Source: Streptomyces sp. SAI-127
Lineage (GTDB): Bacteria; Actinomycetota; Actinomycetes; Streptomycetales; Streptomycetaceae
Reading direction: 5' to 3'
Length of the DNA: 64,000 nt
Assembly: GCF_029894425.1 (NCBI RefSeq)
Contig: NZ_JARXYJ010000001.1
Coordinates: 496,001-560,000 of the forward strand
The notes below the pieces were generated by a model, which was not told the DNA's origin, searched no databases, and saw nothing but the letters and a program-made list of their open reading frames with translations. The position numbers and the translations under genes were made by a program. Below are positions 16,408-59,940 of the stretch, one piece after another; the first letter of the stretch is position 1; each line of letters opens with the position of its first letter.

Positions 16408-17049
16408 TTACCCCGCGTCTGTGTCGGCCGGGGCGAGGCTCGGCTCCGGCGTGTCGGCGCCATCCTTGCTCTTCCGCCCGCCTGCCTTGCGCTCGCGCTC
16501 GGCGCGCTTGCCGTCGCGCTTGTCCTTGGCCTCCTGCTTCCTGATCTCGTCGGCCGCCTTCTCCATCGCCTTCAGTTCGGCGCGCACGTCGTCGGCGGGG
16601 CGGCGTTCGAGGGCCGCACCGTAGCGCGTGGCCAGCAGGTCCAGAGCCTCGGTGCCGGCCTCCTCGACCCCGGCCAGGATGACGGTGCCGCCCGGCGGGA
16701 CATGCGGAGTGAAGGCACCGACCGCCCCGGTCGCTTCGGTGGCCCGCTTGTAGTCGTGGCCTCCGCCGATCAGCGCACCGATGCCCCAGCCCATCAAGAG
16801 GCCGAGGGGGCCGCCGAGGATGCCGACGAGCGAACCGATAAGCGAGCCGAGCGCGGTGCCGCGTCCGGACTCCGTGTCCATGCCCTCGGGGAAGTGGACG
16901 GTGCCGTCCTCCATGCGCTCGATCAGCACGGCGCCGCGGACCTCGGCGGTGGCGGAGTTGAGGTGCTTCAGCTCGCTGAGTGCCTGGTAGGCGGTGGCGC
17001 GGTCGTCGAAGCGGAGGGCGATGGCGTTCTCGTTCATGGTCACGGACAT
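16408..17049 (-). CDS. DUF1269-family membrane protein, copy A
   Basis: This 213-residue protein of unknown function begins with an alpha/beta segment (ALRFDDRATAYQALSELKHL). It then has a glycine-rich hydrophobic hairpin (GSLIGSLVGILGGPLGLLMGWGIGALIGGG, about residues 68-97, two membrane-spanning or inserted helices). It ends in a highly charged Lys/Arg/Glu tail probably forming a coiled coil. AAGGAG lies 8 bases before the ATG. It is divergent from a TetR gene across an operator shared with two other copies in this window (47713-48309 and 58862-59458). No biochemical role is known to me for this family. Confidence 0.88.
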   Translation of the reverse strand: MSVTMNENAIALRFDDRATAYQALSELKHLNSATAEVRGAVLIERMEDGTVHFPEGMDTESGRGTALGSLIGSLVGILGGPLGLLMGWGIGALIGGGHDYKRATEATGAVGAFTPHVPPGGTVILAGVEEAGTEALDLLATRYGAALERRPADDVRAELKAMEKAADEIRKQEAKDKRDGKRAERERKAGGRKSKDGADTPEPSLAPADTDAG

Positions 17050-17117
17050 GAGCTGTCTCCTTGGAGCCTCAAGGGATGGGTGACTTATGGACCCCGTGGA
17101 GCGGGTTCCCGGCCATC

Positions 17118-17166
17118 TGTGAGACAGTATGTATCAGAGCAAGCTTCTGAGTCAAGTCGTCTCACA
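17118..17166. promoter_or_regulatory. Shared TetR/DUF1269 operator-promoter, copy A
   Basis: TGTGAGAC (17118-17125) and GTCTCACA (17159-17166) are perfect inverted arms 49 bp end to end. Inside, read toward DUF1269 (minus strand), is TTGACT (17150-17155), 16 bp, then TACATA (17128-17133), a promoter. The same arrangement recurs at 47589-47637 and 59550-59597. It is the obvious site for repression by the divergent TetR protein. Confidence 0.8.
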
Positions 17167-17193
17167 AGCCGCTCGGAAAGGAGCGGTGCCCCG

Positions 17194-17778
17194 ATGCCCC
17201 CTACGAACGACGACCCCCGTGCCCGCCGCAGCCGCGCCGCGGCCCTGGCCGCTGCCACCGAACTTCTCGCGGAAGGAGGACCGGGACACATCACCCACGC
17301 CGCCGTCGCCGCACGGGCCAAAGTGGGCCGCGCCACCGTCTACCGGCACTGGCCCGACCTGCAGGCGCTCCTCCTGGACACCCTGACCGGCGCGGCCCAT
17401 CCCCTGCTCACCCTGGGCCACGGCCCGGTCCGCGACGAGCTGGTGACTCACCTGCAGCAGCAGACCGACTGGCTCAACCGTCCGGTCTCCGCTTCCGTCA
17501 TCGCTACCGTCATGCAGCGCGCGGAGTGGGACCCGGACATACGCTGCCTGCGCGACGAGATGTTCGGCCGCGGCGGCGAGCACCTCACCGACGCGCTCGC
17601 CGCCGCCGTCGCACGCGGTGAACTACGCGCCGGCATCGAAGAACACACCCGGGACCTGGCCTCCCGGATCCTCGGCCCCCTGCTCTTCCTGAGGCTCATG
17701 CTCGGCACGCAGCCGGACAGGAAAACGGTGGCCGACACGGTCGACGCCGCCCTGGCGACCTGGCAGCCGCACAAGTGA
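17194..17778 (+). CDS. TetR-family repressor, copy A (partner of DUF1269)
   Basis: This 194-residue regulator has an N-terminal helix-turn-helix (THAAVAARAKVGRATVYRHWPDLQALL, about residues 30-56) and an all-helical ligand domain containing SASVIATVMQRAEWDPDIR. It is divergent from the DUF1269 gene and likely represses it and itself through the intervening TGTGAGAC repeats. The paralogue at 46982-47566 has exactly the same length and begins almost identically (MPxxNDDPRARRSRAAAL). A decayed third copy lies at 59617. GGAAAGGAG precedes the ATG. The inducer is unknown. Confidence 0.92.
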   Translation: MPPTNDDPRARRSRAAALAAATELLAEGGPGHITHAAVAARAKVGRATVYRHWPDLQALLLDTLTGAAHPLLTLGHGPVRDELVTHLQQQTDWLNRPVSASVIATVMQRAEWDPDIRCLRDEMFGRGGEHLTDALAAAVARGELRAGIEEHTRDLASRILGPLLFLRLMLGTQPDRKTVADTVDAALATWQPHK

Positions 17779-17921
17779 CCGCCGCACACCGTCCGATGCC
17801 GAACGGACGGAACAGCAGCCCACCGGAATTCCGACTCCTCACGGCCGCGTCCGGCCTCATCCCCGGGCGTGCCACCGACGGCTGACCGACGTGCAGACCA
17901 GGGACATGCCTGCCGGCGCCC

Positions 17922-18464
17922 TCAGTGCCCAGTGATCACCTTCACCATCACCACGCCCGAGCCGATCGCCGCGTCCAACAGCCCCGCCACGCCGGAAAGC
18001 AGTACCCCACCGCCCATCCGCCGCCCTCCCGTGAAGCCCCAGACCGCCATCGAGACGACATCCACGCCAACCGCCGTCCACAGCGCGGTGGTCAGACCGA
18101 GGGCGCCGCCCGCCGACAGCGCAATCATCAGGAGCGGGCCCGCGGCGCAGCTGAGCAGCGGGCTGCTGACGAACAGCAGGTGCCTTACCTCGCGGCGGTT
18201 GACCAACCGTTGGTGAACGACGCGGTGGGACTGCAGGTCGGCCACCAACGTCGCCAGCCACAAGCCCACCGCGGTGCCCGTGACGTACAGCGCCGCCGTG
18301 CTGTGCCGGGTATGCGTGTTCTGCGCCAGGCCGACCATAACGGCGAGCATGGTGATCACCGCGTAGATCCGTTCCTTGAGCCGCTCGCCCAGAGCCTTGA
18401 GCCTCTGGGCAGAAGGTTCCGTGGAGCCGGAGGCCGACGGTTGCTGAGCGTCGAGATCGGACAT
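17922..18464 (-). CDS. Small integral membrane protein, VIT/DUF-type
   Basis: This 180-residue protein has a polar N-terminus (MSDLDAQQPSASGSTEPSAQ) and about five hydrophobic segments after residue 35, some Gly/Ala-rich (SGVAGLLDAAIGSGVVMVKVI at the C-terminus). An upstream in-frame extension is open but less likely. ATG 18464 is chosen because the residues after it look like a normal cytoplasmic N-terminus. I do not recognise the family with certainty. It may be a stress-related inner membrane protein. It lies convergent with the TetR copy A gene. Confidence 0.65.
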   Translation of the reverse strand: MSDLDAQQPSASGSTEPSAQRLKALGERLKERIYAVITMLAVMVGLAQNTHTRHSTAALYVTGTAVGLWLATLVADLQSHRVVHQRLVNRREVRHLLFVSSPLLSCAAGPLLMIALSAGGALGLTTALWTAVGVDVVSMAVWGFTGGRRMGGGVLLSGVAGLLDAAIGSGVVMVKVITGH

Positions 18465-18939
18465 GCCGGAACCGTATCTTGCTGCGGCGCGGGTGCTGCC
18501 CAGGCGGTGGGGTGGGGCGCATGAGACAGCCGGAAAGGGCTTCAGCCCGGAGCGGGAAGTGCTTGTCAGGAGCGCACGGCTGTTCCGGGAGGCGCTGTCG
18601 GCGGGCGCCGGTACCGACTGCCCCGGGCTGCGCCGTACCTCGTTTTCAATCATCGGAAGGTGTTGTTCCTCCCTGCGCCGGGGCCACGCAGCATTACACG
18701 TGCCCGGACGGGCCGGCCGCCGCCGATCCGCTCCGAGTGCCGCCGGCCGGGGAGGACGCCATGCCCAGCGAAGACCCGACCGCCGGGACGAGCCCGAGAC
18801 CTCGTGCCGCCCCTACCCGCTGCACGGACGCCTGCGGGACGAAGACACGCGCTTACGGATCAGGACCCGCAACATCGCGCTCGGGGACACCTGAATCCCG
18901 GCCGGTGTTTCCGTGCTGTGACTACAAAGGAGTTGTGTC
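18465..18939. other. Spacer with possible gene tail
   Basis: This region carries the promoter of the downstream SDR relic. A frame ending at about 18894 (PLHGRLRDEDTRLRIRTRN and a stop) has coding-like composition, but I cannot assign it. Otherwise nothing is recognised. Confidence 0.35.
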
Positions 18940-19456
18940 ATGGCTGGACGCTTGACGGACAGAATTGCCGGGGTGACCAGCGGTAGTGCCGGAATCGGCC
19001 AGGAGATCGCCCGAGAACTGGTGTCCGAAGCCGCCGACATCGCGGTTGCCGACATCAACGCGGCGGAGGAGACCAGGGCGCTCGTGGAAGCTACCGGGCA
19101 GCGGTTCTTCAGTGCGAAGGTCGACGTGTCCGACGAGGCGCAGGTGAATGTCTTCGCCGGGGAGGCCCGGGACGCACTGGGCCCTGCCGACATCCTCGTG
19201 GACAACGCGGCCATCGTGCCTCTCGCCGACTTCGACAACGCGACGTTCGAGCACTGGAAACACACCTTCGCGAAATGAAGAGTCCTTCGACCAGACCGTG
19301 CGGATGCAGGACCTGAAGCGGCGAGGGAAGCCGGAGGAGATCGCCAACCGCGTGGCATTCCTTGCCTCCGACGAAGCCGCGTTCATCACCGGTCAGCTCG
19401 TCGTCGTTGACCGAGGAATCACGCGCCGCCGACGTTGGTCTCGCACCTGCCGTTGA
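18940..19456 (+). pseudogene. Short-chain dehydrogenase with internal deletion
   Basis: The first 111 codons encode an SDR N-terminus closely resembling the intact paralogue at 44930-45676. The frame then hits a stop at 19278. The next frame resumes at ESFDQTVRMQDLKRR and continues to ITGQLVVVDRGITRR. Against the paralogue, about 100 residues are missing, including the Ser-Tyr-Lys catalytic centre. The nucleotide-binding motif has also changed from TGGSAGIG to TSGSAGIG. The start has its own AAAGGAG. It cannot be an active dehydrogenase. Confidence 0.85.
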
Positions 19457-19561
19457 ACCTCTGTCGACGCCGGATGAGGCGTTCACCAACCCTCCGGATC
19501 GGCTGTCCTCGATCCCTCACCGGTGCCTGAGCGCCTGGCATCCCACATCGAAAGGAAGAAT

Positions 19562-20923
19562 GTGGCACTCGCAGGAAAACTGGAGCGGAAGCTGCTTTGG
19601 TCGGAGGATCAGGGCTACGAGGAAGCTCGCCGCGACGCCGTCTGGAACGGCCGTAAGCCTCCAAGACGTCCGGCCGGAATCGTGCTGGCCGAGGACGCCG
19701 CCGACGTCGCGGCTGCGGTACGACTGGCGCAGGAGCGGGGGCTCCAGGTCTCCGTCCGCGCCGGCGGGCACAGCACCTCCGCCGCGGGTGTTCGAGAGGG
19801 CGCGCTCCTCATCGACGTGTCCCGCCTGTCGAGCATCGACGTCGAGGCCCGGGCCAGGACCGCGGTCGTCGGCCCCGGGGCCATCGGACGGGACCTCGAC
19901 CTGACGCTGGATCCGCTGGGGCTGTTCTTCCCCCACGGCCACTGTTCCACGGTGGCCGTGGGGGGCTTCCTGCTGGGTGGGGGCCTGGGATGGAACTGGC
20001 GTGCGTACGGTCCCGGGTGTGGCCTGGTCCGAGCCCTCGACGTGATCACGGCGGACGGTCAAGTGGTCCGGGCTGACGAGTCGCAGAACAGCGATCTCTA
20101 CTGGGCGGCCCGAGGCGCAGGTCCCGGGTTCTTCGGCGTCGTGACCGCCTTCCACCTGGATATGCAGCCGAAACCGGCCGTGATCAAGACCGCCGCACAC
20201 AACTATCCGCTCGCGGCGCGTGGTGAACTCCTCAGTTGGCTGCACGAGATGCGTCACGAGATGGCGCCGATCGTGGACCAGGCCCTCTGTGTCACCCAGC
20301 ACGTGACCCACTCGCCGGACGGGCCGACAATGCTGCTGGGCACAGTGGCCTTCGCCGACTCCGAGCGCGAGGCCGACGATGCCCTCGCGCTCTTCACGAA
20401 CGCTCCTCTGCGGGTGAAGGCGATCTGGGGCGATGACGGCACCACCGTCGGGAGCGTGCAGCACCTCACGGGCGTCGATGACCTGTACCCGGCCGGTCTC
20501 CGGTACGCGCACGACAACATCATGTCGAGCGCGGAGGCATCCGCCCTGTTGCCGGCCCTCGACGCGGCCCTCACCTCGCTCCCCACACCCCGGTCACACA
20601 TCAACTGGCAGAACCTCGCGGGGGTTCCGGAACTGCCGGACATGGCCTTCTCCCTGCTCGGCGACACCCTGATCGAGGTGGTCGCGGTGGGAGACGATCC
20701 GAGCCAGGACGCCCAGCTGCAGGCGTGGGTCACCGACCATGCCCGGCAGCTGGAACCGGTGGCCGTCGGAAGCCAGATCGGCGCCGACTCCATGGCGTCC
20801 CGCGGCTTGGGACCGGATTCCTACTTCTCCGCCGACGCGCTGTCCCGTCTCAACATCATCCGTGACCAGTGGGATCCGGACCACCGCTTCGTGTCGTTCC
20901 TGCTCCGCCGAGACACCGTCTGA
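19562..20923 (+). CDS. FAD-linked oxidase, BBE/6-hydroxynicotine oxidase type
   Basis: This 453-residue flavoprotein has the PCMH fold (about residues 35-210) and a C-terminal berberine-bridge segment ending RFVSFLLRRD. RAGGHSTSAAGV contains the His that normally carries 8-alpha-linked FAD. HGHCSTVAVGG supplies a Cys at the position used for a second covalent link in bicovalent members. Family enzymes oxidise alcohols, sugars or amines, reducing oxygen to peroxide. GTG 19562 follows AAAGGAAG; an ATG 13 codons upstream is the alternative. It stands alone downstream of the SDR relic; its substrate is unknown. Confidence 0.87.
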   Translation: MALAGKLERKLLWSEDQGYEEARRDAVWNGRKPPRRPAGIVLAEDAADVAAAVRLAQERGLQVSVRAGGHSTSAAGVREGALLIDVSRLSSIDVEARARTAVVGPGAIGRDLDLTLDPLGLFFPHGHCSTVAVGGFLLGGGLGWNWRAYGPGCGLVRALDVITADGQVVRADESQNSDLYWAARGAGPGFFGVVTAFHLDMQPKPAVIKTAAHNYPLAARGELLSWLHEMRHEMAPIVDQALCVTQHVTHSPDGPTMLLGTVAFADSEREADDALALFTNAPLRVKAIWGDDGTTVGSVQHLTGVDDLYPAGLRYAHDNIMSSAEASALLPALDAALTSLPTPRSHINWQNLAGVPELPDMAFSLLGDTLIEVVAVGDDPSQDAQLQAWVTDHARQLEPVAVGSQIGADSMASRGLGPDSYFSADALSRLNIIRDQWDPDHRFVSFLLRRDTV

Positions 20924-20971
20924 CCCTGACAGGCGTGATGGACATTGCACGACTGCGGACCTATCGTCATC

Positions 20972-21000
20972 CATAAAAGTCAGTTTTGTTAGATGAAAGT
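20972..21000. promoter_or_regulatory. Putative IclR half-sites before SDR gene
   Basis: CATAAAAGT (20972-20980) and GATGAAAGT (20992-21000) are direct repeats 20 bp apart, about two helical turns. They match the half-site ATRRAAGT seen in the palindrome at 22694-22712. They lie just upstream of the ribosome-binding site at 21001-21009. Confidence 0.4.
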
Positions 21001-21013
21001 AGAGGAGAGTGCC

Positions 21014-21769
21014 ATGGCTTGGTTGGGCTTGGAGGGCAGCCGGGCGCTCGTCATCGGGGCCGGCGGCCTGGGTGCCGCCTGCGCCCAAGGGTTCGCGGAT
21101 GCCGGGGCACAGCTGGCCGTCGTGGACGTCGACGAGGCGAAGCTCAAGGCTCTGCGGGACGATCCGGCGCTCGCGGACGTCGATGTGCACGTGATTCCGG
21201 CCGATGTCACGACCTCGACGGCCTGCGAGGAAGCAGTCCGGGCGGCGGCCGACGCGCTCGGCGGCCTGGACGTGCTGGTGCACGCGGTGGGAACCAACGA
21301 CCGCCGGGCGGTGGTCGACACACCGGATGAGACCTGGGAGCGGATCCTCGCGCTGAACCTGTCGAGCGCCTTCTACGCCGGGCGAGCGGCGGGACGTCTG
21401 ATGCGCCGGGCCGGGCGCGGGAGCATGGTGTTCTTCTCCTCGGTCTCCTCCCGGCTCGCCCACCCGCACCATGCCCCCTACGCCGCGACCAAGGGGGGAC
21501 TGGACCAGCTGGCGAAGGTGATGGCCCGGGAGTGGGCCGCCGACGGCGTGACCGTCAACGCGGTCGCCCCCGGCTACACGGAGACCGAACTGACTCGCGA
21601 GTACCTGGCCAGGCCAGGGATGCGCGAGGAGATGCTCGGCCTGGTCCCGGCCGGACGTCTGGGCACCCCTCAGGACGTGGTCGGCGCCGTGCTGTTCCTC
21701 GCCTCGTCGCGGGCGTCATTCATCACGGGGCAGGTGCTGTATGTGGACGGTGGCCGCACGCTCGTATGA
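21014..21769 (+). CDS. Short-chain dehydrogenase/reductase
   Basis: This 251-residue classical SDR has a cofactor motif variant (VIGAGGLGAAC), active-site Ser in FFSSVSS, catalytic YAATK and the C-terminal FITGQVLYVDGG. It should oxidise or reduce a carbonyl with NAD(P). ATG 21014 is preferred over ATG 20993 because AGAGGAGAG lies just upstream. It is the first gene on the left of the IclR-centred cluster and is convergent with the iclR-type gene. Substrate is unknown; the FAH-family genes downstream suggest a dihydrodiol-like or hydroxy acid intermediate. Confidence 0.9.
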   Translation: MAWLGLEGSRALVIGAGGLGAACAQGFADAGAQLAVVDVDEAKLKALRDDPALADVDVHVIPADVTTSTACEEAVRAAADALGGLDVLVHAVGTNDRRAVVDTPDETWERILALNLSSAFYAGRAAGRLMRRAGRGSMVFFSSVSSRLAHPHHAPYAATKGGLDQLAKVMAREWAADGVTVNAVAPGYTETELTREYLARPGMREEMLGLVPAGRLGTPQDVVGAVLFLASSRASFITGQVLYVDGGRTLV

Positions 21770-21815
21770 GCCAGGAGCCGAGCGGACAGGACGGCACCGC
21801 AGGCTGCCACATCCG

Positions 21816-22679
21816 TCAGCTTCCGCCGAGCAGCCGCGTGATCTCCTGACAGGTGCTCAGCAGCCGTGGGCGCAGCTCGTCGAGCAGGCGGGTGACGGGA
21901 AATCCCATCGCCGGTACGGCCACGTTGGCGGCGGCCACCACCGAACCGGAGGCGTCACGCAAGGGCGCGGCCACCGAGCGCAGCCCGTAGGCGAGTTCCT
22001 CGTCCTGCACCGCCCAGCCCCGTTCGCGAATATTCGCCAGCACCGGCCGCAGCTCTGCCAACGACCGGATCGCGTTGGGGCCGGTCGCCCCGGTGAAGGA
22101 CTCTTCGGTGAGGCGCTCCTCCAGCTCAGCGTCGTCCAGACCGCTCAACAGGACCTTTCCGATGGAGGTGTTGACGGCAGGAAGCCGCGAGCCCACCTGG
22201 ATGTTCGCGGTCACCAGGTCGTTGTTGCGCAGCCGGATCAAGTACAGCACCTGGTCGCCGGACAGGGTGCCCAGGTTGACCGTCTGACCCGTCGCCGCTG
22301 CGAGCCGGCGCAGCGGCCCGTCGGCGAGTTCCACCACGTCCATGCCGCGCAATGCCGCGAAGCCCAGCATGAGGACTTTGGGAGCCGGACGATAGGCGCC
22401 GTCCGGCAGCTGCTCCAGGAAGCCCTCGGTCACCAGGGTGGCGGCCATCCGGAAGGCGGTCGGCAACGGCACACCGGCCTCGGCGGCCATGTCTGTCAGC
22501 TTCATCGACGACCGCTGTTCGGAGAACTGACCGAGCAGCCGCAGTCCCTTGGCCAGCGCCTCGACGTGGTAGCTGCGTTTGGACGCCGCGGAGCCGTCGG
22601 CGGGGAGGGAACTGGGCGCTTTTTCACGCGGCGGCACGAAAGGTCTCGCTTTCTGTCTACTGGGCACGACGGACGCCAC
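21816..22679 (-). CDS. IclR-family transcriptional regulator
   Basis: This 287-residue regulator has an N-terminal extension of about 35 residues, a winged helix (MKLTDMAAEAGVPLPTAFRMAATLVTEGFLE, about 58-90) and an effector domain (LPAVNTSIGKVLLSGL, GYGLRSVAAPLRD-like). It is divergent from the carboxymuconolactone decarboxylase-like gene, with a near-perfect palindrome between them. It therefore probably controls the 21014-26069 cluster in response to a pathway intermediate. The GTG start at 22679 is uncertain; other GTG codons lie just downstream. Confidence 0.88.
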   Translation of the reverse strand: MASVVPSRQKARPFVPPREKAPSSLPADGSAASKRSYHVEALAKGLRLLGQFSEQRSSMKLTDMAAEAGVPLPTAFRMAATLVTEGFLEQLPDGAYRPAPKVLMLGFAALRGMDVVELADGPLRRLAAATGQTVNLGTLSGDQVLYLIRLRNNDLVTANIQVGSRLPAVNTSIGKVLLSGLDDAELEERLTEESFTGATGPNAIRSLAELRPVLANIRERGWAVQDEELAYGLRSVAAPLRDASGSVVAAANVAVPAMGFPVTRLLDELRPRLLSTCQEITRLLGGS

Positions 22680-22693
22680 GACGTAGCACCGCC

Positions 22694-22712
22694 ACTTTCA
22701 TTGTATGGAAGT
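22694..22712. promoter_or_regulatory. Palindromic operator, likely IclR site
   Basis: ACTTTCATTGTATGGAAGT consists of 8-bp arms with a 3-bp spacer and one mismatch. It sits between the divergent iclR-type gene and the CMD-like gene. Related sequence precedes the first FAH gene and the SDR gene. Confidence 0.6.
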
Positions 22713-22755
22713 CAGCATCAGACTCACCCGCCGTGGGGCGACAAGGAGGACGTAA

Positions 22756-23370: not shown

Positions 23371-23401
23371 CACCCCACGGTGACCCTTCAATACTCAACT
23401 C

Positions 23402-35012: not shown

Positions 35013-35013
35013 G

Positions 35014-46981: not shown

Positions 46982-47566
46982 TCACGCGTTCGGCAGCCAG
47001 GGAGCGAGCGCGGCGTCGACCGAGCCGATCACCATGTCCTTGTCGAGTCGCGCACCGAGCATGAACCGCTGGAACAGCAGGGGACCGAGAATCCGGGCAA
47101 CCACTTCTCTGGCGTGTTCCTCGACGCCGGGACGGAATTCGCCGCGTTCGACAGCGGCGGCGAGCGCGCCCGCGAAGTGCTTGTCGGCGTGGCCGAACAT
47201 CTCTTCGCGGATGCGCCGCACGTCCTCGTCCCGCTCGGCCCGCTCGACGATGGTGGCGATGACCGACACGGCGACGGGTTGGTTGAGCCACTCGGCCATG
47301 TGTTCAAGCTGGCTCACCAGTTGGTGGCGGATCGGGCCTTCGCCGAAGGTGAGCAGAGGGCGGACGTCGTTGGCGAGTGCGTCGAAGAGGAGGGCCTGCT
47401 GGTCGGGCCAGTGCCGGTAGACGGTGGCGCGGCCGACTCCGGCCCGTTCGGCGACGGCGGCGTGAGTGACGCGTTCGGGCCCTCCTTCGACGAGGAGTTC
47501 AGTGGCTGCGATCAATGCGGCTGCGCGGCTGCGGCGGGCGCGGGGGTCGTCGTTGATACGGGGCAT
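46982..47566 (-). CDS. TetR-family repressor, copy B (partner of DUF1269)
   Basis: This 194-residue paralogue of the regulator at 17194 has the same N-terminal pattern (NDDPRARRSRAAAL) and helix-turn-helix (THAAVAERAGVGRATVYRHWPDQQALL). It also shares the SVIATIVERAERDEDVRRIREEMFG segment. It is divergent from DUF1269 copy B, with the shared TGTGAGAC operator 23 bp upstream of its start. Autorepression and control of DUF1269 are inferred. Confidence 0.92.
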   Translation of the reverse strand: MPRINDDPRARRSRAAALIAATELLVEGGPERVTHAAVAERAGVGRATVYRHWPDQQALLFDALANDVRPLLTFGEGPIRHQLVSQLEHMAEWLNQPVAVSVIATIVERAERDEDVRRIREEMFGHADKHFAGALAAAVERGEFRPGVEEHAREVVARILGPLLFQRFMLGARLDKDMVIGSVDAALAPWLPNA

Positions 47567-47588: not shown

Positions 47589-47637
47589 TGTGAGACAACT
47601 TGACTCACAACCTCTCTCCGATACATACTGTCTCACA
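47589..47637. promoter_or_regulatory. Shared TetR/DUF1269 operator-promoter, copy B
   Basis: Inverted arms TGTGAGAC (47589-47596) and GTCTCACA (47630-47637) span 49 bp as in copy A. Toward DUF1269 (plus strand), TTGACT (47600-47605), 16 bp and TACATA (47622-47627) form the promoter. Confidence 0.82.
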
Positions 47638-47712: not shown

Positions 47713-48309
47713 ATGTCCGTGAACGAGAACGCCGTTGCCCTGCGCTTCGCCGACCGCGCCGCCGCGTATCAGGCGCTCAGCGAACTGAAGTACCTCAGCC
47801 CCGCCACGACCGAGGTCCGTGCCGCCGTCCTGGTCGAGCGCCTCCAGGACGGCGCGGTGCGCGTCCCCGAGGGCATGGACGGCGAGGAGGGGAGGAACAC
47901 CGCGGTCGGCGGGCTGGTCGGCTCGCTCGTCGGCATCCTCGGCGGACCCCTCGGCGTGCTGATGGGCTGGGGCGTCGGCGCGCTGATCGGGGGAGGCCAC
48001 GACTACAAGCGGGCCGAACAGGCCACCACCGCCGTCGGCGTCTTCGCCCAGCAGGTACCGCCGGGCGGCACGGCCATCCTGGCCGAGGTCAGGGAGTCCG
48101 ACACCCAGGCCCTGGACCAGCTGGCCATGCGCTACGACGCCGTCCTCGAACGCCGCCCCGCCGACTCCCTCCGCACCGAACTGAAGGCCATGGAAGAGGC
48201 CGCTGACCGGAGCAGGAGGGAGGAGGCGAAGCAGCGGCGTGAGCGCGAGCGCGCCGAGAAGAAGTCGAGGAAGGGCGGCGCGACACCGCCGCAGCAGGCC
48301 ACCGCATAA
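47713..48309 (+). CDS. DUF1269-family membrane protein, copy B
   Basis: This 198-residue protein is almost identical to copy C (58862-59458) up to about residue 165 and clearly related to copy A. The Gly-rich double hydrophobic segment GLVGSLVGILGGPLGVLMGWGVGALIGGG lies at about 67-95. The charged C-terminal tail differs from copy C. GGAGAG precedes the ATG. A perfect terminator follows. Function is unknown; the regulator next door implies ligand-induced expression. Confidence 0.9.
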   Translation: MSVNENAVALRFADRAAAYQALSELKYLSPATTEVRAAVLVERLQDGAVRVPEGMDGEEGRNTAVGGLVGSLVGILGGPLGVLMGWGVGALIGGGHDYKRAEQATTAVGVFAQQVPPGGTAILAEVRESDTQALDQLAMRYDAVLERRPADSLRTELKAMEEAADRSRREEAKQRRERERAEKKSRKGGATPPQQATA

Positions 48310-48340: not shown

Positions 48341-48374
48341 GGTGAGGGCGGGCCCGTGATGGCCCGCCCTCACC
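48341..48374. terminator. Bidirectional terminator after DUF1269 copy B
   Basis: Perfect 13-bp arms GGTGAGGGCGGGC (48341-48353) and GCCCGCCCTCACC (48362-48374) lie between the convergent DUF1269 and efflux genes. The same arms follow copy C at 58784. Confidence 0.88.
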
Positions 48375-52511: not shown

Positions 52512-53144
52512 TCAGTGGCCTCGGGCGATCCACTCCTGCAGGTGCGGGGCCTCGGCTCCGATGGTGGTCGACTCGCCGTGGCCGGTGCGGACCACGGTTT
52601 CCGGCGGCAGCACCAGCAGCCGGTCACGGATGGAACGGACGATCGTCGGGAAGCAGGAGTACGACCGCCCGGTGGCCCCCGGTCCGCCGGCGAACAGGGT
52701 GTCGCCGGTGAAGACGGTACCCAGTGACGGAGCGTGCAGACAGATTGCGCCAGGCGTGTGTCCGGGGCTGTGCAGCACGGTCAGTTCAAAGCCGGCCACA
52801 CGAAGTCGGCGCATGTCGGAGAGGTAGCCGTCAGGGTTCCGGTCCGGGTGGGTGTGCTTCCACAGCAGCCGGTCGTCGAGATGGATCAGGATCGGCGCAC
52901 CGGTCGCGTCGGCCAGCGCGGGAGCGGCGCCGATGTGGTCGTCGTGGCCATGGGTGCACACGATGGCCCGTAGCCGCCGGTCTCCGACGGCGGCGCCGAT
53001 GGCACCGGCGTCGTGAGAGGCGTCGATGACGATCACCTCGTCGTCGTCGCCCACGATCCACACGTTGTTGTCGACGTCCCAGGTGCCGCCGTCCAGGCTG
53101 AAGGTGCCGGACGTGACCAGGTGCTCGATGCGGGCGGCCGTCAC
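52512..53144 (-). CDS. MBL-fold metallohydrolase, mycothiol-pathway type
   Basis: This 210-residue zinc hydrolase has the [12 protein letters not shown] motif, [23 protein letters not shown] and a terminal [10 protein letters not shown]. Proteins of this kind are commonly encoded right after S-(hydroxymethyl)mycothiol dehydrogenase in actinomycetes and are thought to hydrolyse S-formylmycothiol. Its start overlaps the dehydrogenase stop by four bases, supporting this. The hydrolase role is family inference. Confidence 0.9.
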
Positions 53145-54226
53145 AGAACGACAACTGAGCGGAGCACGTCGCCCTTGTGCATCCGGGCGAAGGCGTCCTC
53201 GACGCCCTCCAGGGCGATCGTCTCGCTGACGAACGCATCGAGGTCCAGACGCCCCTGGAGATACAGATCGATCAGCAACGGGCAGTCTCGTGAGGGCAGA
53301 CAGTCGCCGTACCAGGAGGACTTCAGCGCCCCGCCGCGGCCGAAGACGTCCAGCAGTGGCAGTTGGAGTTTCATTTCGGGCGCGGGTACGCCGACGAGGA
53401 CGACCGTGCCGGCCAGGTCGCGGGCGTAGAAGGCCTGCCGGTATGTCTCCGGGCGCCCTACGGCGTCGATGACCACGTCCGCGCCGAAGCCGCCGGTCAG
53501 TTCGCGTACGGCCTCCACCGGGTCCGTTTCCCGCGAGTTGATGGTGTGTGTGGCGCCCAAGGATGCGGCAGTGGCCAGCTTGCGGTCGTCGATGTCCACC
53601 GCGATGATCCTCGACGCACCCGCCAGCTGGGAACCCACCACGGCTGCGGCGCCGACTCCCCCGCAGCCGATGACGGCCACGGAGTCACCACGGGTGACCG
53701 CACCGGTGTTGATCGCCGCGCCGATGCCCGCCATCACGCCACAGCCCAGCAGGCCTGCTGCGGCCGGCGACGCGGCCGGGTCGACCTTGGTGCACTGTCC
53801 GGCCGCGACCAGGGTCTTCTCGGCGAAGGCACCGATGCCCAGGGCCGGGGACAGCTCAGTGCCGTCGGTGAGGGTCATTTTCTGCCGGGCGTTGTGGGTG
53901 TCGAAGCAGTACCAGGGCCGGCCACGCAGACAGGCCCGGCACTGGCCGCACACGGCACGCCAGTTGAGGATCACGAAGTCGCCGGGCTCCACGTCGGGCA
54001 CGCCTTCACCGATCGACTCGACGATCCCGGCCGCCTCGTGGCCGAGCAGAAAGGGGAACTCGTCGTTGATGCCGCCATCGCGGTAGTGGAGGTCGGTGTG
54101 GCAGACCCCGCACGACTGGATCCGTACCACCACCTCCCCCGGCCCCGGGTCGGGGATCACGATCGTCTCGATGCCGACCGGCTCGCCCTTCGCCCTCGCG
54201 ACGACGCCTCGTACCTGCTGGGCCAT
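53141..54226 (-). CDS. mscR: S-(hydroxymethyl)mycothiol dehydrogenase
   Basis: This 361-residue zinc alcohol dehydrogenase oxidises the formaldehyde-mycothiol adduct with NAD. Catalytic-zinc residues appear in [15 protein letters not shown] and LGHEAAGIV. Structural-zinc Cys are in [15 protein letters not shown], and the cofactor motif is [14 protein letters not shown]. The overall sequence ([33 protein letters not shown]) matches the MscR/AdhE2 group. It sits in an operon with a P450 and its reductase, so formaldehyde from O-demethylation is the expected source. Confidence 0.93.
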
Positions 54227-54244
54227 TGCTGGATTCCCTCCTGC

Positions 54245-55456
54245 TCAAACGGGCTGGACGCCCAGGGGCAGAGACGCCCAGGAGCGCAGGGTGTTGTTGG
54301 GGTGGCGGCGCGGAGTGCCGGTCAGCTCGAACCGCTCGACGCGGCCGGCCAGCGCGGTCAGCAGCGCCTCGGCCTCCAGGCGGGCCACATGCTGGCCGAT
54401 GCACTGGTGGATGCCCATGCCGAAGCCGACGTGGCCGGAGGGGTCTCGAGTGGGGTCGAAGCGGTCGGGGTCGCTCCAGCGGTCCGGGTCGCGGTTGGCC
54501 GCGCCGAGGAACATGAGGATCTTCGCGCCCGCCGGGACGACCGTGCCGGCGATGGTGACGTCTGTGGTGGCGGTGCGGAAGAAGGTCTGCACCGGTGACT
54601 GCCAGCGGACCGCCTCGTCGAACGCGGCGCGGGCCAACTCCGGCCGCTCCCGCAGACGTTGCCACTCCTCGGGATGGGTGGCGAAGGCGTACAGGCAGGC
54701 TGCCAGACCATGCACGGTGGTGTCGACGCCGGCCGAGAGCAGGGAGCGCACCACCACCGGTGCCTGCTCGTGTGTCAGATCTCCACGGTCGACAGCCGCC
54801 CAGATGGCAGCTCCGAAGCTGTCCTCGCTCAACGCCTCCCGCCGGCATTGGGCATTGACCCATGCCGACAGCTCGGACAACCGGTGGGCGTCCGCCTTGA
54901 CGAGGTCGTTGCGAGGGCCGAAGGCGTTGAAGACCATGTTGCCGTACGGCAGGAGGTTCTCCCGGCCGTCCGGCCCGAGGCCCACCGCGTCAGGGAAAGC
55001 GCGCAGTGGGAACGCCTCCGCCAGCGCCGTGAAGCCGTCGAACTCGGCTCCTTGAGCGAGGACTTGCTCGACGAGTTCCTCCGCCACGTTGTTCCAGGTC
55101 TCGCGCAGGCGGCGCAAGGCGGGTGGGGCGAGGATCTCCCGCAGCACCCGGCGCGGGGCGTCGTGGCGGGGCGGGTCCGCCTCCAGCAGCAGGCTCGGCG
55201 GCCGCCACGGCTCCTCGTGCCGGAAATTGGCCAGGCCCACGCCCGAGCCCGACTCGAAGTGCTGCCAGTCCACCAGTGCGGCATGCACCTGCTCGTAGCG
55301 GGCCAGGGCGTACGCGTCATGGCGGGAGAGGTACACGACCGGACCGGTATCGCGCAGCGCCTCGTGCAGCGGTTCGGGGTCCAACAGGACGTCGTGGGCG
55401 AACGGGTCGACGTCACTTACGGGCGGCACGACGGAATGCTCCAGTGCCTCGGTCAT
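54245..55456 (-). CDS. Cytochrome P450, CYP199A-like (aromatic O-demethylase type)
   Basis: This 403-residue P450 has I-helix LLSAGVDTTVHGLA, ExxR in FDEAVRWQSP and heme loop FGMGIHQCIGQHVARLE. PYGNMVFNAFGPRND is characteristic of CYP199A, whose members demethylate 4-methoxybenzoate-type substrates. ATG 55456 is preferred to the adjacent GTG because of spacing from AAGGAG. The gene lies between a phthalate-type reductase and the formaldehyde dehydrogenase. This context strongly suggests a methoxyarene demethylase; the exact substrate is unknown. Confidence 0.92.
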   Translation of the reverse strand: MTEALEHSVVPPVSDVDPFAHDVLLDPEPLHEALRDTGPVVYLSRHDAYALARYEQVHAALVDWQHFESGSGVGLANFRHEEPWRPPSLLLEADPPRHDAPRRVLREILAPPALRRLRETWNNVAEELVEQVLAQGAEFDGFTALAEAFPLRAFPDAVGLGPDGRENLLPYGNMVFNAFGPRNDLVKADAHRLSELSAWVNAQCRREALSEDSFGAAIWAAVDRGDLTHEQAPVVVRSLLSAGVDTTVHGLAACLYAFATHPEEWQRLRERPELARAAFDEAVRWQSPVQTFFRTATTDVTIAGTVVPAGAKILMFLGAANRDPDRWSDPDRFDPTRDPSGHVGFGMGIHQCIGQHVARLEAEALLTALAGRVERFELTGTPRRHPNNTLRSWASLPLGVQPV

Positions 55457-55497
55457 CACGGCTCCTTCGAGAAGGTTTCAGCGAGCAGAGGTCGGTC

Positions 55498-56478
55498 TCA
55501 CAGATCGAGGACGAGACGGTCGCCGCAGGAGCGCGACACGCACAGGAACATGCAGTCGTTCGCGGTCCGTTCGTGGTCGGCCAGCACCGAGTCCCGGTGG
55601 TCCGGCCGCCCTTCCAACACGGGCGTCAGGCATGTGCCGCAGGTGCCCTGTTCGCAGGAGGACAGCACGCCCACGCCGGCCCTGCGCACCGCCTCCAGCA
55701 CGGACACGTCCGGAGTGACGGTGACCGTGCGTCCGGTGCGCCGCAGTTCTACCTTGAAGGGCGTCTTGCGGACTGGCGGGGTCTGCGCGGCGGCGGTGAA
55801 GCGCTCGGTGCGCAGGGCGTACGGCGGCCAGGCGGCGCAGGCCGCTTCGACGGCGGCGAGCAGCGGGGCGGGGCCGCAGCAGTACACCTTGGTGTCCGGC
55901 CGCGGTGTGCCCAGCCAGGCCTCCAGGTCCAGCAGCCCGAGTTCGTCCTGCGGGACGACGTGGACCCGCTCGCCGTAGGCCGCCGTCAGTTCCTCGCGAA
56001 AGGCCATTGATGACCGCGTACGCCCGCCGTACAGCAACTGCCACTCCGCACCGAGCAGTTCGGCCTGCCGCACCATGGGCAGCAGCGGCGTGATGCCGAT
56101 GCCGCCCGCGATGAAGAGGTACTTCTCCGACGGGACGAGGGGGAAGTGATTGCGCGGGCCGCCGACCCCGACGAGGTCCCCTGGGCTCAACCGGTCGTGC
56201 ACGTAGGCGGACCCTCCCCGGCCCACGGGCTCCCGCAGCACGGCGATCCGGTAGGTGTGCGCGTCCCATCGGTCGCCGCACAGCGAGTACTGCCGGGTCG
56301 TCCCGTCCGGCAGCACGAGGTCGATGTGGGACCCCGGCGTCCAGTCCGGCAGCCGTGCCCCGCCGGGGTGGGTGAGGGTGAGTGATACGACGCCCTCGGC
56401 GACGTGCTCCTTCGCGGAGACCGTCAGTCCCGGACCGACACCGGGACCTGCATCCGCCAGCGCACTGGTTCCGACCAC
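55498..56478 (-). CDS. VanB/PDR-type ferredoxin reductase
   Basis: This 326-residue single-chain electron supply has flavin domain RQYSLCGDRW, NAD domain LFIAGGIGITPLLPMV and C-terminal [2Fe-2S] domain SCEQGTCGTC with a final Cys in FLCVS. GTG 56478 has GGGAGG at 7 bases and gives the normal length; a longer ATG-started frame is possible. It is 41 bp upstream of the P450 gene. The pairing resembles other reductase-P450 demethylase pairs. Confidence 0.9.
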   Translation of the reverse strand: MVGTSALADAGPGVGPGLTVSAKEHVAEGVVSLTLTHPGGARLPDWTPGSHIDLVLPDGTTRQYSLCGDRWDAHTYRIAVLREPVGRGGSAYVHDRLSPGDLVGVGGPRNHFPLVPSEKYLFIAGGIGITPLLPMVRQAELLGAEWQLLYGGRTRSSMAFREELTAAYGERVHVVPQDELGLLDLEAWLGTPRPDTKVYCCGPAPLLAAVEAACAAWPPYALRTERFTAAAQTPPVRKTPFKVELRRTGRTVTVTPDVSVLEAVRRAGVGVLSSCEQGTCGTCLTPVLEGRPDHRDSVLADHERTANDCMFLCVSRSCGDRLVLDL

Positions 56479-56576
56479 GTTGTCGCCTCCCGTCGTTGGG
56501 TTGCACGCAGGATGCAGGGCGACGACGGACGAGCGCGACGGCATTCTCAATCAATGAGAGACGAACATCCGCCGGC

Positions 56577-57383
56577 TCATACGGCCGTTGTTCTACCGTC
56601 GCGTGAGTCACCGGGCTCTCGGCCCCGCCTCGGACCAACCGGTGCCCCGAGCGCACGGGAGACACCGCGTGCCGCCGTCCGCACCACGGGCACGACGGAG
56701 GAGGCCTCCGACGCGTTGGGGACGATCACCGCCAGAGCGGCCACTACCTCACCACGCGCGTCACGTACCGGCGCTGCCACGCCCAGGGCCTCCAGATGCA
56801 CATACCCCGGGCAGTACGCGTAACCCTGCTGCCGTACATCAGCCAGAACGGCCCGCAGCCGCGCGGCGGTGGCGGGGGTATTCGGGGTATAGCGGTGCAG
56901 GCATCCGTCAAGCACCCGTCGGCGCAGGTCAGCAGGCCCGTGGGCGAGGAGGACCAGGCCGATGGAGGAGGCGTGCAGCGGCAGGCGCCCCGCGACGCGG
57001 GTGTAGTTGATGACGGCACCCGGTGCTGTCAGCCGCTCCAGGAACAGTGCCTCGTCACCGTCCAGCACACCGAGCTGCACGTGGTGGCCGACGACGTCGT
57101 GGACACCCTCCATGAACGGCATGGCCGCGTTGCGCAGCGACAGGGTGGGCGAGGCTCGTGTGGCCAACTCCCACAGGCGCATACCGATCCGCACCCGGCG
57201 GTCGTCGTCCCGGATCAGGCAGCCGTACGACACCAGCTCGGCCACCAGACGCGACGCGGTCGCCACGTGCAGCCCGGAACGCCGGGAGATCTCCGAGACG
57301 GTCAGGGCGGGCTCCTCGGGCGTGAACGCGTCAAGGATCCGCACCGTCCTCGCCAGAACCGACTCGCCGTGTTGTGTCCTCAC
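56577..57383 (-). CDS. IclR-family transcriptional regulator
   Basis: This 268-residue regulator has winged helix LTVSEISRRSGLHVATASRLVAELVSYGCL (about residues 27-57) and effector domain with GRLPLHASSIGLVLLAHGP and YVHLEALGVAAPVRDARGE. Start is GTG 57383. It lies 98 bp ahead of the demethylation operon on the same strand and is its likely regulator, probably responding to a benzoate-type compound. Confidence 0.9.
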   Translation of the reverse strand: MRTQHGESVLARTVRILDAFTPEEPALTVSEISRRSGLHVATASRLVAELVSYGCLIRDDDRRVRIGMRLWELATRASPTLSLRNAAMPFMEGVHDVVGHHVQLGVLDGDEALFLERLTAPGAVINYTRVAGRLPLHASSIGLVLLAHGPADLRRRVLDGCLHRYTPNTPATAARLRAVLADVRQQGYAYCPGYVHLEALGVAAPVRDARGEVVAALAVIVPNASEASSVVPVVRTAARGVSRALGAPVGPRRGREPGDSRDGRTTAV

Positions 57384-57608
57384 CTGGCCATCACCGGACG
57401 CCTTCCAGACAGGTCAAGCCCTATGGTGCACGCGCCCGCGTAGTGGTCCACATCCTGATCGTGGGCACCCCTCGGACAGCTTCACAAAGCGGTGGCGCAG
57501 CCGAACCGCACCCTCGGCGCGGTCATCGTCGTAGCAGCGCTGGGCCCAACGCTGTGCATCGGCCGCCAGCATGTCGGTCGGCAGCCAGGGCGGGAGGTGA
57601 CACGGTGC
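57384..57608. other. Spacer with unassigned coding-like stretch
   Basis: On the minus strand about 57440-57600, a frame reads WLPTDMLAADAQRWAQRCYD and RLRHRFVKL. This looks like a protein tail of unknown family. It may be the relic of a gene lost between the IclR and glycosyltransferase genes. Confidence 0.3.
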
Positions 57609-58727
57609 TCAGCGCGCTGCCGTCGTCAGGTCCTCGATGTCGCCCACCAGGTCGGCCGGGGAGGGGAGCCCGGCGATCTCGTCACGCATGGCAAGGGCGG
57701 CCTTGCGCAGGGCGTCGTCGTTCAGGAGGGTGTCGAGCAGGTCGCCGTCCACCACCTGGGGCTCGGCGCGCAGGGCGAAGCCCTGCGCAGTGGCAGCCGC
57801 GGCATTGGTGAAGTGGTCGGCACCACTCGGCAGGAACAGCTGCGGGATGCCGACGGCCGCCGCGGCCATCATGGTGCCCGCTCCGCCGTGGTGGACCACG
57901 GCGTCGCAGCCGGCCAGCAGCTGGGCGAGCGGCACCCAGTCCGACAACGGCTTTACGTTGGGCGGCAGTTCGCCCAGCGGCGCGAGGTCGGCGCCGCCGA
58001 GGGCGAGCAGGAAGTCGGCGTCCACCGTGGCCGCCTGTTCGATCAGCCGGTCGACGTACCGCGCGCCTGCCGTCCGCGACAGCGCCGTGCCGAGCGTGAC
58101 CACGACCCGCTGCCGCCCGCCGCGCGCGACCAGGTCCGCCGGCACCGGGCCGCCGCCGTTGAACGGCACGTACCTGACCCGCCAGCCCGTGCCGTCGCCG
58201 CCGAGCGAGGCGGGGACCACGTCGAGCACGGTGCGTTCGGGCGGCCCGGTCACCCCGCGGGCCCGGTACTCGTCGGCCAGCTCGGCGGCCATTCCTTCGA
58301 CGTAGGGCAGGCCCGCGGTCACACCGAAGTTGTGGACCACTGTGGGGATGCCCAGCGCGGCAGCGACGAGTGGCGCCGTACCTTGCATCGTGGCGTGCAC
58401 GATCATGTCCGGCCGCCACGTCTCGGCCAGCCGGACCAGGTCGTCCAGGGCGGACCGGCTGTGCTCGGTGAAGCCGATCACGGCGAGGCGGTTGATCTCC
58501 TCCTGCGTGAGCTCCTTCGGCCCGTTCGTGCTGAAGCGAGCGAAGATCTCGGCCGTGGTGGTTCCGTCGCCCACCTCGACCAGGGGAAACCCGGTCGGCC
58601 TCAGCACGGTGACCGGGGCCTGCCCGGCGAACAGGACGTCGTGACCGGCCGACCGCAGGGCTTGGGCGGTCGGGACCATGGGGAAGACATGCGCGGCCGA
58701 GCCCGGGGCGCTGAACAGGATTCGCAT
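57609..58727 (-). CDS. Glycosyltransferase, macrolide/MGT type (GT1)
   Basis: This 372-residue GT-B enzyme has an N-terminal acceptor domain (MRILFSAPGSAAHVFPMVPTAQALRSAGHDVLFAG). The C-terminal nucleotide-sugar site is VHHGGAGTMMAAAAVGIPQLFLPSGADHFTNA. This is the pattern of antibiotic glycosyltransferases and macrolide-inactivating enzymes. ATG 58727 has GAGGAG about 9 bases upstream. No other biosynthetic genes flank it, so self-protection or inactivation of a foreign compound is as likely as biosynthesis. Confidence 0.88.
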   Translation of the reverse strand: MRILFSAPGSAAHVFPMVPTAQALRSAGHDVLFAGQAPVTVLRPTGFPLVEVGDGTTTAEIFARFSTNGPKELTQEEINRLAVIGFTEHSRSALDDLVRLAETWRPDMIVHATMQGTAPLVAAALGIPTVVHNFGVTAGLPYVEGMAAELADEYRARGVTGPPERTVLDVVPASLGGDGTGWRVRYVPFNGGGPVPADLVARGGRQRVVVTLGTALSRTAGARYVDRLIEQAATVDADFLLALGGADLAPLGELPPNVKPLSDWVPLAQLLAGCDAVVHHGGAGTMMAAAAVGIPQLFLPSGADHFTNAAAATAQGFALRAEPQVVDGDLLDTLLNDDALRKAALAMRDEIAGLPSPADLVGDIEDLTTAAR

Positions 58728-58783
58728 TACGTGTACTCCTCGTGGGGGGGTGAAGGGTGGCGGTGTCATCTCACGGCCCGGCG

Positions 58784-58815
58784 GGTGAGGGCGGGCGAGG
58801 GGGCCCGCCCTCACC
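58784..58815. terminator. Terminator after DUF1269 copy C
   Basis: GGTGAGGGCGGGC (58784-58796) and GCCCGCCCTCACC (58803-58815) form a perfect 13-bp stem with loop GAGGGG. The arms are identical to those after copy B. Confidence 0.87.
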
Positions 58816-58861
58816 AAGCGGGGCCGAGGGGAGTTGCCTCGCATCCATGGGCCCGCCCCGG

Positions 58862-59458
58862 TTACGCGGTGGCCGCCTGCATGTGCGTCGAGGCGCCGTG
58901 CCGCGCCTTCCGCTCCTCGCGCTTGCGGTCCCGCTCTTGCCGCGCCTGCTCCTTCCTCGCCTGCTCGGCGGCTTCTTCCATGGCTTTCAGTTCGGTGCGG
59001 AGGGAGTCGGCGGGGCGGCGTTCGAGGACGGCGTCGTAGCGTATGGCCAGCTGGTCCAGGGACTGGGTGTCGGACTCCCTGACCTCGGCCAGGATGGCCG
59101 TGCCGCCCGGCGGTACCTGCTGGGCGAAGACGCCTACGGCAGTGGCGGCCTGTTCGGCCCGCTTGTAGTCGTGGCCTCCCCCGATCAGCGCGCCGACGCC
59201 CCAGCCCATCAGCACGCCGAGGGGTCCGCCGAGGATGCCGACGAGCGAGCCGACCAGCCCGCCGACCGCGGTGTTCCTCCCCTCCTCGCCGTCCATGCCC
59301 TCGGGGACGCGCACCGCGCCGTCCTGGAGGCGCTCGACCAGGACGGCGGCACGGACCTCGGTCGTGGCGGGGCTGAGGTACTTCAGTTCACTGAGCGCCT
59401 GATACGCGGCGGCCCGGTCGGCGAAGCGCAGGGCAACGGCGTTCTCGTTCACGGACAT
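58862..59458 (-). CDS. DUF1269-family membrane protein, copy C
   Basis: This 198-residue protein differs from copy B by only a few residues before position 165. After that the charged tail diverges (ARKEQARQERDRKREERKARHG). The hydrophobic double segment and N-terminal domain are intact. The shared operator lies about 92 bp upstream. Its TetR partner is decayed, so this copy may be expressed constitutively or be controlled by the copy A or B repressors in trans. Function unknown. Confidence 0.9.
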   Translation of the reverse strand: MSVNENAVALRFADRAAAYQALSELKYLSPATTEVRAAVLVERLQDGAVRVPEGMDGEEGRNTAVGGLVGSLVGILGGPLGVLMGWGVGALIGGGHDYKRAEQAATAVGVFAQQVPPGGTAILAEVRESDTQSLDQLAIRYDAVLERRPADSLRTELKAMEEAAEQARKEQARQERDRKREERKARHGASTHMQAATA

Positions 59459-59549
59459 GAGCTCTCCCTCGGTCGACAGAGCCGCAACGGGCCCCTAGAT
59501 GACGGTGGGCGGCAGCGGCACCCGCCTGCACGGGACCTCCGCCCCATCT

Positions 59550-59597
59550 GTGAGACAGTATGTATCGAAGATGGTTGTGAGTCAATAAGTCTCACAG
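59550..59597. promoter_or_regulatory. Shared TetR/DUF1269 operator-promoter, copy C
   Basis: TGTGAGAC (59550-59557) and GTCTCACA (59590-59597) span 48 bp. On the minus strand TTGACT (59581-59586), 15 bp and TACATA (59560-59565) face the DUF1269 gene. The operator is intact although the divergent regulator gene is broken. Confidence 0.8.
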
Positions 59598-59616
59598 ATC
59601 GCGCGGGAGGAAGAGA

Positions 59617-59940
59617 GGTGACCGCCGCCACTTCACCCACGCTCCGTCGCCCAACGGGCCGGCCTCAACCGCGCCACCGTCCACCGACGCTGGTCCGGAC
59701 CAGCAGACCCTCTTCGTCGACACGCTCGCGCGCAGCGTCCGCCTTCGCTCGCCCGCCCCTCAGCCCCGTCCGCGACCAACTCGTCACCCAGCTCCAGCGG
59801 CACGCCGACTGGCTCAAACCAACTCGTCTCCCCATCGGTCATCGCCACCGTCGCCGAACGAGCCGAACTCGACGAGAACGCGCGGCACATCCACGAGCGC
59901 CCGGCATCCGGCACCGGACGGGACCCGGCAACGAAGTCAG
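59617..59940 (+). pseudogene. Decayed TetR regulator, copy C
   Basis: Pieces in different frames match TetR copies A and B in order: THASVAQRAGLNRATVHRRW (helix-turn-helix), PVRDQLVTQLQRHADWLKP, and SVIATVAERAELDENARHIHE. At least two frameshifts separate them, and the N-terminal residues before the helix-turn-helix and the C-terminal third are missing. It occupies the same position relative to the operator as the intact regulators. Confidence 0.85.

Follow-up and report, generated by a model that had tools for sequence, protein, structure and literature searches.

Three DUF1269-like gene cassettes with a common putative TetR-type double operator in Streptomyces sp. SAI-127: a probable local regulon

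Introduction

Among the described systems closest to the locus studied here, the tetR/tetA pair possesses two 15-bp palindromic operators (PMC3511530), and the same source describes Streptomyces TetR regulators encoded less than 200 bp away from a divergent neighbour as most likely regulating this neighbour, repression having been observed in 5 of 5 tested cases. Other TetR proteins are described as occupying their operator with one dimer or with two, a pair of dimers being bound on the long operators of QacR and CprB (PMC4150764). The present analysis concerns a window of 64,000 nucleotides from Streptomyces sp. SAI-127 (contig NZ_JARXYJ010000001.1, positions 496,001 to 560,000, corresponding to G000:C1:496001-560000; the host genome comprises 10.72 Mb in 3 contigs), which contains three cassettes termed A, B and C. 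Each carries a gene for a DUF1269-like membrane protein preceded by a common DNA element; the divergent tetR gene is intact in A and B and is present as a relic in C. As in tetR/tetA, a divergent repressor gene accompanies a membrane-protein gene and two palindromes lie over the promoter in a short intergenic region, whereas the operators measure 21 bp instead of 15 bp, the target is not a pump and three copies have one operator code. With QacR and CprB the locus has in common a long operator region, whose spacing might allow two dimers; unlike theirs, its operator region consists of two palindromes with centres 27-28 bp apart, and some sites in relatives have a single clear 21-mer.

We propose, with a probability of about 0.62, that the cassettes are TetR-type derepression switches forming one three-gene regulon in which C is run in trans. 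The design of such a switch is ordinary and of a known kind; new are the operator code, the fact that this genome has it in three copies only, its presence before DyP-type peroxidase and P450 genes elsewhere and the occurrence of orphan operators. A literature search, with preprints and most subscription journals outside its coverage, found no publication on this TetR-DUF1269 pair among the papers listed; by title, those listed for TGTGAGAC with TetR included nothing relevant, there was nothing on the subject for a TetR/Streptomyces/DyP-type peroxidase operator, and neither GATACATACTGTCTC nor DUF4331 combined with DyP gave a match.

Results and Discussion

Three elements, each upstream of a DUF1269-like gene

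The window contains three matches to the pattern TGTGAGAC-N28..40-GTCTCACA, compared with 0 in 100 dinucleotide shuffles, and the whole genome has no others. Genome searches with GATACATACTGTCTCACA and TRTGAGACNNNTTGACTCACA, allowing up to 3 mismatches, led to the same three places and no further ones, the reversed controls giving 1 match and 0 matches, respectively. The only DUF1269-like genes of the genome at E<=0.001 are A, B and C (68, 100 and 89% identical to B), and, whereas TetR A and TetR B are 61% identical, the next TetR of the genome is 33% identical to B. The three cassettes with a common element reported in the initial annotation are thus real, with three genomic places each before a DUF1269-like gene, and this confinement together with the remoteness of the next TetR supports its view of a local regulon; as the genome presents itself, the grouping of three elements and three genes is plausible as a local three-site regulon. 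The operators of the cassettes are 82-88% identical to each other versus 54-63% for the adjacent 5' untranslated regions (5'UTRs), indicating that the elements were kept more than their surroundings.

Two predicted operators over a promoter

The organisation of the element was derived from an alignment of 24 elements, retrieved from 27 upstream regions of DUF1269 genes, and 4 further sites. Within 3 arm mismatches the element is present upstream of 24 of the 27 related copies, those without it being griseoruber_1, a degenerate copy beside griseoruber_1 and a partial copy in genome G260. It is composed of two 21-bp imperfect palindromes (TGTGAGAC-N5-GTCTCACA) with 6-7 bp between them. The operator O2, with the consensus TGTGAGAC-N5-GACTCACA, contains the -35 hexamer TTGACT, and 16 of its 21 consensus positions agree with the reverse complement. 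In O1, with the consensus TTCGATAC-ATACT-GTCTCACA, the inner half is weak and overlaps the -10. Of the embedded promoter as initially annotated, the TTGACT hexamer stands as the -35, but CATACT at 18 nt (17 in C) is a better -10 than TACATA at 15/16 nt. The latter is less likely, the sole match of a promoter scan of the B region (46900-48500) being TTGACT-18-CATACT (shuffle mean 0.1). Symmetric double operators precede a gene termed X in relatives (see below), and in those of genome G272 CAATCT stands at the place of the -10.

The element had been described as a single operator with arms 48-49 bp end to end; in this form one assembly of repressors would bridge the two arms, 33 bp apart, or loop the DNA between them. 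Indeed, conservation is good in the outer arms, which are symmetric to each other, and 13 of 24 positions pair in the full 49-bp consensus. In the alignment, however, each end has its own 21-bp palindrome, and O2 alone shows the self-symmetry given above. Moreover, G242 and G234 each have just one 21-mer within 3 mismatches at their tetR genes, and the site TATGAGAC-GTGAT-GTCTCATA, located before the gene of a TetR of a second group in G272, has perfect 8-bp arms in an 8-5-8 unit. These sites make the single 48-bp operator very unlikely, and from them the 21-mer looks like the operator unit. Two single sites with 2 mismatches were also found elsewhere in relatives (G242:C1:6316335 and G040:C1:3486239).

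Repressors and proposed switch

TetR A and TetR B both contain the TetR_N domain (38.7 and 45.2 bits, respectively, Pfam cut-off 24) and the ligand and dimer domain TetR_C_11 (46.8 and 49.8 bits, Pfam cut-off 32); solved structures related to TetR B by sequence are distant only (best E 1.9e-11). Their genes lie 144-146 bp from the divergent DUF1269-like genes, hence below 200 bp, with the palindromes over the promoter. At the C locus, which is without an intact tetR, residues 37-121 match at 38% (tblastn), including a remnant of the helix-turn-helix; the frame is broken, residues 78-95 lying in a second frame, and residues 1-36 with the start are not recognisable there. One TetR copy is thus dead while its operator is kept, in agreement with what had been noted initially. 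The recognition-helix stretch GRATVYRHW is common to TetR A, TetR B and the five aligned relatives (42-46%), and is present in both TetR groups; this stretch is not rare among TetR proteins.

In the proposed switch each 21-bp palindrome would be occupied by a TetR dimer, which covers the -35 at O2 and the -10 at O1; bound TetR would shut off the promoter of the DUF1269-like gene and probably the tetR gene itself. Once a ligand fills the TetR pocket, the repressor would be released and the membrane protein made. This ligand is most likely hydrophobic or aromatic, be it a xenobiotic or a metabolite, and the switch would probably answer chemical stress of that kind. Both TetR A and TetR B would probably recognise all three elements, which would place C under control in trans and join the three genes in one regulon. 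The genes, the element with its two palindromes, its conservation and its restriction to three places in this genome are observed; binding and cross-binding, the class of the ligand and the role of the protein as a membrane-stress or tolerance factor are inferred.

Several observations weigh against this proposal. O1 is a poor palindrome, matching its reverse complement at 12 of 21 consensus positions, and the promoter hexamers overlap much of the conserved sequence of the element, so that operator conservation may come in part from promoter constraint. The G272 tetR site, having a weak second 21-mer (3 mismatches) 27 bp on, is not a clean single-operator case. In genome G125 (S. griseoruber), which has no TetR of the group at E<=1e-15, one element is nevertheless preserved with two changes; retention does not therefore require a repressor, and orphan elements can persist, at least temporarily, after all repressors of the group have gone, which weakens the argument for C. 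Finally, a comparison of the neighbourhoods of 15 case loci and 13 hand-picked control loci recovered DUF1269 at 15/15 versus 0/13 and tetR, as whole open reading frames, at 9/15 versus 0/13, but the flanks are variable, with DHA2-type pumps at 6/15 case and 3/13 control loci, so that the link with detoxification rests mainly on the shared operator. That the cassettes belong to a conserved aromatic-catabolism island was likewise not established, as only DUF1269 and tetR recur clearly.

Cross-regulation, regarded as likely in the initial annotation, is plausible for C under TetR A or TetR B, because the element is kept at most of the related genes and orphan elements exist elsewhere, but the S. 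griseoruber case makes orphan retention weaker evidence for it than assumed. The alternative is that A and B serve their own cassettes and that C is constitutive, its element being kept by promoter overlap and by recombination with B. This would agree with the 98% identity between the coding DNA of C and B over 444 nt, with griseoruber_2, which keeps the element in a genome where no TetR of the group was found, and with an element relic in Streptomyces sp. LUP47B that has few changes after loss of the gene, decay hence being slow. Such an absence of cross-regulation nevertheless appears doubtful: beyond the promoter hexamers the outer arms of C are exact, whereas the 5'UTRs of C and B share 54% identity, which is not what one copied block would give, and griseoruber_1, in the TetR-less genome, has lost the element.

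History of the three copies

According to a tree and to identities, the A branch includes LUP47B_2, SA15_2, G227_2 and flaveus, all four with the element upstream, and the B branch includes LUP47B_1, SA15_1 and G227_1. By its segment identities C is a mosaic with a coding start that is nearly B, namely the first 444 coding nucleotides mentioned above, and upstream DNA of another lineage, the 5'UTR being nearest to aurantiogriseus (76%) and hokutonensis (72%). The coding tail of C is 76% identical both to B and to LUP47B_1 and 63-64% identical to the aurantiogriseus/hokutonensis type, and therefore gives no support to a derivation from the latter. In our reading an older C locus underwent gene conversion by B, to an extent that may vary with how the tail is assigned. 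The divergent 5'UTR rules out that C is simply a recent copy of B, although the coding tail is still nearest to B and LUP47B_1. At the C locus of LUP47B the DUF1269-like gene is gone and the element relic remains; this strain shares the island of the window at about 88-94% DNA identity and is consequently not independent.

Decayed second DUF1269 copies, some of them still with an element, were also seen beside intact cassettes in other Streptomyces (L021:1110-1635, L036:2449-3317, L019:858-1310 and L087:2233-2667), and local birth and decay of these copies looks common.

Occurrence of the element in other genomes

The pattern proposed in the initial annotation matches in 11 of 392 genomes of the genus, compared with 4 for the reversed control; among the 10 matching genomes besides that of the window, 5 have the match at a tetR|DUF1269 pair, 1 at gene X and 4 without such a gene nearby. 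The tighter pattern TGAGACNNNTTGACTCAYA matches in 13 of the 392 genus genomes and in 9 of 382 genomes of the order, with 0 reversed-control matches in both draws and no match in 23 genomes from outside the genus. By handle numbers the two draws represent 644 distinct genomes, 18 of which contain a match, and collapsing paired matches leaves 32 sites. Their targets were assigned by testing 40 loci with nine query proteins; the queries for X, X', DUF4331, DyP, DHA2 and P450 were drawn from the same loci, so that for those classes the counts are a description and not a test. Half of the sites (16/32) face a DUF1269-like gene, 11 of them with an adjacent tetR and 5 without (window C, griseoruber_2, G272, G040 and G465). 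Another 12 face X, X' or DUF4331, including one that also faces tetR and 8 with a DyP gene in the stretch read; the remaining sites correspond to tetR alone (2), P450 (1) and nothing recognised (1, L106). The check proposed in the initial annotation, whether the motif always lies between tetR and DUF1269 genes, thus has a mixed outcome, and exclusivity is ruled out by the X/X'/DUF4331, P450 and tetR-alone sites.

A 21-bp operator at L131:3853-3873 (G372), located between an OYE-type gene and the second-group tetR, has no recognised target. OYE and nitroreductase genes are found near elements; as transcription from an element was demonstrated for neither, they were not counted.

A relative was found in 15 of 16 chosen genomes searched for TetR (E<=1e-15), the exception being G125. 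In G272, G040 and G465 the DUF1269-like gene (54-55% identical to B) is preceded by the element without a tetR beside it, and a member of the second TetR group (42-46% identical to B) is encoded at about 13, 16 and 9 kb, respectively, from this orphan gene. Next to the second-group tetR lies a DHA2 pump gene, the G272 copy of which is assigned to TIGR00711, with relatives of 92-93% in G040 and G465. Operators precede X-DyP-DUF4331 in G272, X-DyP in G465 and P450 in G040. These loci resemble the cassettes in having the same operator code, with the element also at the DUF1269 gene in the three genomes, and differ from them by the symmetric double operator at X, a site that is absent from the genome of the window.

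No Pfam or NCBIfam family was found for the protein encoded by X and X' (L130:5716-6348 and L111:1605-2267), and the predicted model of X is poor (mean predicted local distance difference test score 43.6). X or X' lies beside a DyP-type peroxidase gene at some sites, with no DyP in the flank at L103, L108 and L190. The G372 copy of DyP matches TIGR01413 with 101.6 bits (cut-off 100.5) and stays below the cut-off for Pfam DyP_N (22.4 bits, cut-off 27.5); the G372 copy of DUF4331 corresponds to PF14224.

This company suggests a place of the DUF1269-like protein in a chemical or redox defence response. A broader and more tentative possibility is that two TetR groups with one operator code govern chemical-defence genes scattered over the genome as one regulon. 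Its members would be the DUF1269-like proteins, protein X, DyP peroxidase, DUF4331 and P450, while the DHA2 pump gene adjoins the repressor; DUF1269-like genes would have moved in and out of it simply through loss of the repressor gene with the operator retained.

The DUF1269-like protein

The Pfam DUF1269 profile (PF06897) gave no match to A, B or C at E<=1, in contrast to homologues of 42-49% identity that carry a precomputed PF06897 label (P0089: 48%, E 2.6e-43); close homologues with source names come mostly from Streptomyces, and DUF1269 appears in some of the NCBI and UniRef names. The family assignment made initially therefore holds through labelled homologues but not through a profile match, and we name the proteins DUF1269-like. 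Repeated GxxxG motifs and a hydrophobic stretch at residues 65-83 are visible in the sequence, although the Pfam Gly-zipper models remain below cut-off for A, B and C (9.7-12.5 versus 25-28.9 bits). Solved structures related by sequence gave weak matches only (E 0.044 or worse), and the fold search, based on a predicted model, matched only common alpha/beta folds, a ferredoxin-like/ACT-like fold being considered.

Concerning function, a DUF1269 gene of S. griseus is grouped, in the relevant passage of PMC8914203, with membrane genes potentially involved in sporulation. In line with this and with the absence of a clear enrichment of detoxification among the flanking genes, the protein might be a developmental or general membrane protein and not a chemical-stress factor. 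We hold this to be possible though rather unlikely: that passage does not establish that the S. griseus gene is a member of this subfamily, which at >=54% identity is found in 9 of 392 genus genomes, a sparse distribution for a core developmental role, and the dedicated TetR as well as operators in common with DyP and P450 genes suggest chemical induction. An inducible stress function is a guess, with some context pointing to chemical or redox detoxification. If the broader regulon outlined above is real, Streptomyces would have in its DUF1269-like proteins inducible membrane tolerance factors of a new class. The proposed switch, if right, would provide the first regulatory and functional handle on this subfamily, with a defined operator and two candidate repressors, the DyP and P450 genes behind the operator in relatives would hint at inducers, and the locus would offer a compact natural case of a lost repressor gene whose operator is in use under a paralogue.

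Features of the cassettes and neighbouring genes

The positions of the features are collected in Table 1. The terminator stem described as identical in B and C is confirmed as 13 bp in common, but A also has a related, weaker one.

Table 1. Positions of the cassette features within the window
Feature	Position	Strand	Basis or remark
Terminator-like stem-loop after DUF1269-like A	16357..16389	-	ViennaRNA fold -26.6 kcal/mol; T-run not part of criterion
DUF1269-like membrane protein A, 213 aa, GxxxG-rich	16408..17049	-	68% identical to B
Element A (elements 48-49 bp)	17118-17166		Upstream of DUF1269-like gene
Operator O1 of A, over -10	17118..17138	-	Element alignment
Promoter of DUF1269-like A, TTGACT-18-CATACT	17126..17155	-	Layout as in B promoter
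Operator O2 of A, over -35	17146..17166	-	Element alignment
tetR A, intact, divergent; 144 bp to DUF1269-like start	17194..17778	+	TetR_N and TetR_C_11
tetR B, intact, divergent; 146 bp to DUF1269-like start	46982..47566	-	TetR_N and TetR_C_11
Element B	47589-47637		Upstream of DUF1269-like gene
Operator O2 of B, TGTGAGACAACTTGACTCACA, over -35	47589..47609	+	Element alignment
Promoter of DUF1269-like B, TTGACT-18-CATACT	47600..47629	+	Promoter scan
Operator O1 of B, TCCGATACATACTGTCTCACA, over -10	47617..47637	+	Element alignment
DUF1269-like membrane protein B, 198 aa, GxxxG-rich	47713..48309	+	Homologues, model, hydropathy peak 65-83
Terminator-like stem-loop of B, 14 bp	48341..48374	+	-33.2 kcal/mol
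Terminator-like stem-loop of C, 13-bp stem common with B	58784..58815	-	-30.2 kcal/mol
DUF1269-like membrane protein C, 198 aa, mosaic	58862..59458	-	Identities to B by segment
Element C	59549-59596		Upstream of DUF1269-like gene
Operator O1 of C, over -10	59549..59569	-	Element alignment
Promoter of DUF1269-like C, TTGACT-17-CATACT	59557..59585	-	Position
Operator O2 of C, over -35	59576..59596	-	Element alignment
tetR C relic	59633..59897	+	tblastn; DNA match to B at 59633-59896

A gene for a DHA2-family efflux pump (48441-50189; TIGR00711, 255.8 bits, cut-off 230.2) is convergent with DUF1269-like B; S. spongiae and S. flaveus have relatives of it (84-86% identity) in the vicinity of cassettes. 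Beside cassette B and a short-chain dehydrogenase (SDR) gene, positions 43338-44136 and 46042-46840 form a recent direct duplication (799 bp, 99.75% identity), within which lies part of a second TetR-type gene. A short-chain dehydrogenase remnant near cassette A (18926-19433) is 81-84% identical to 45691-44929 near B on the opposite strand. Inspection by eye further reveals many catabolic-looking genes around the cassettes, at 19523-27581, 35175-43112 and 52512-63998 (P450s, fumarylacetoacetase-like, dioxygenase/reductase-like genes and IclR regulators), and a catalase-peroxidase-like gene that comes after a Fur-like one at 31652-34342.

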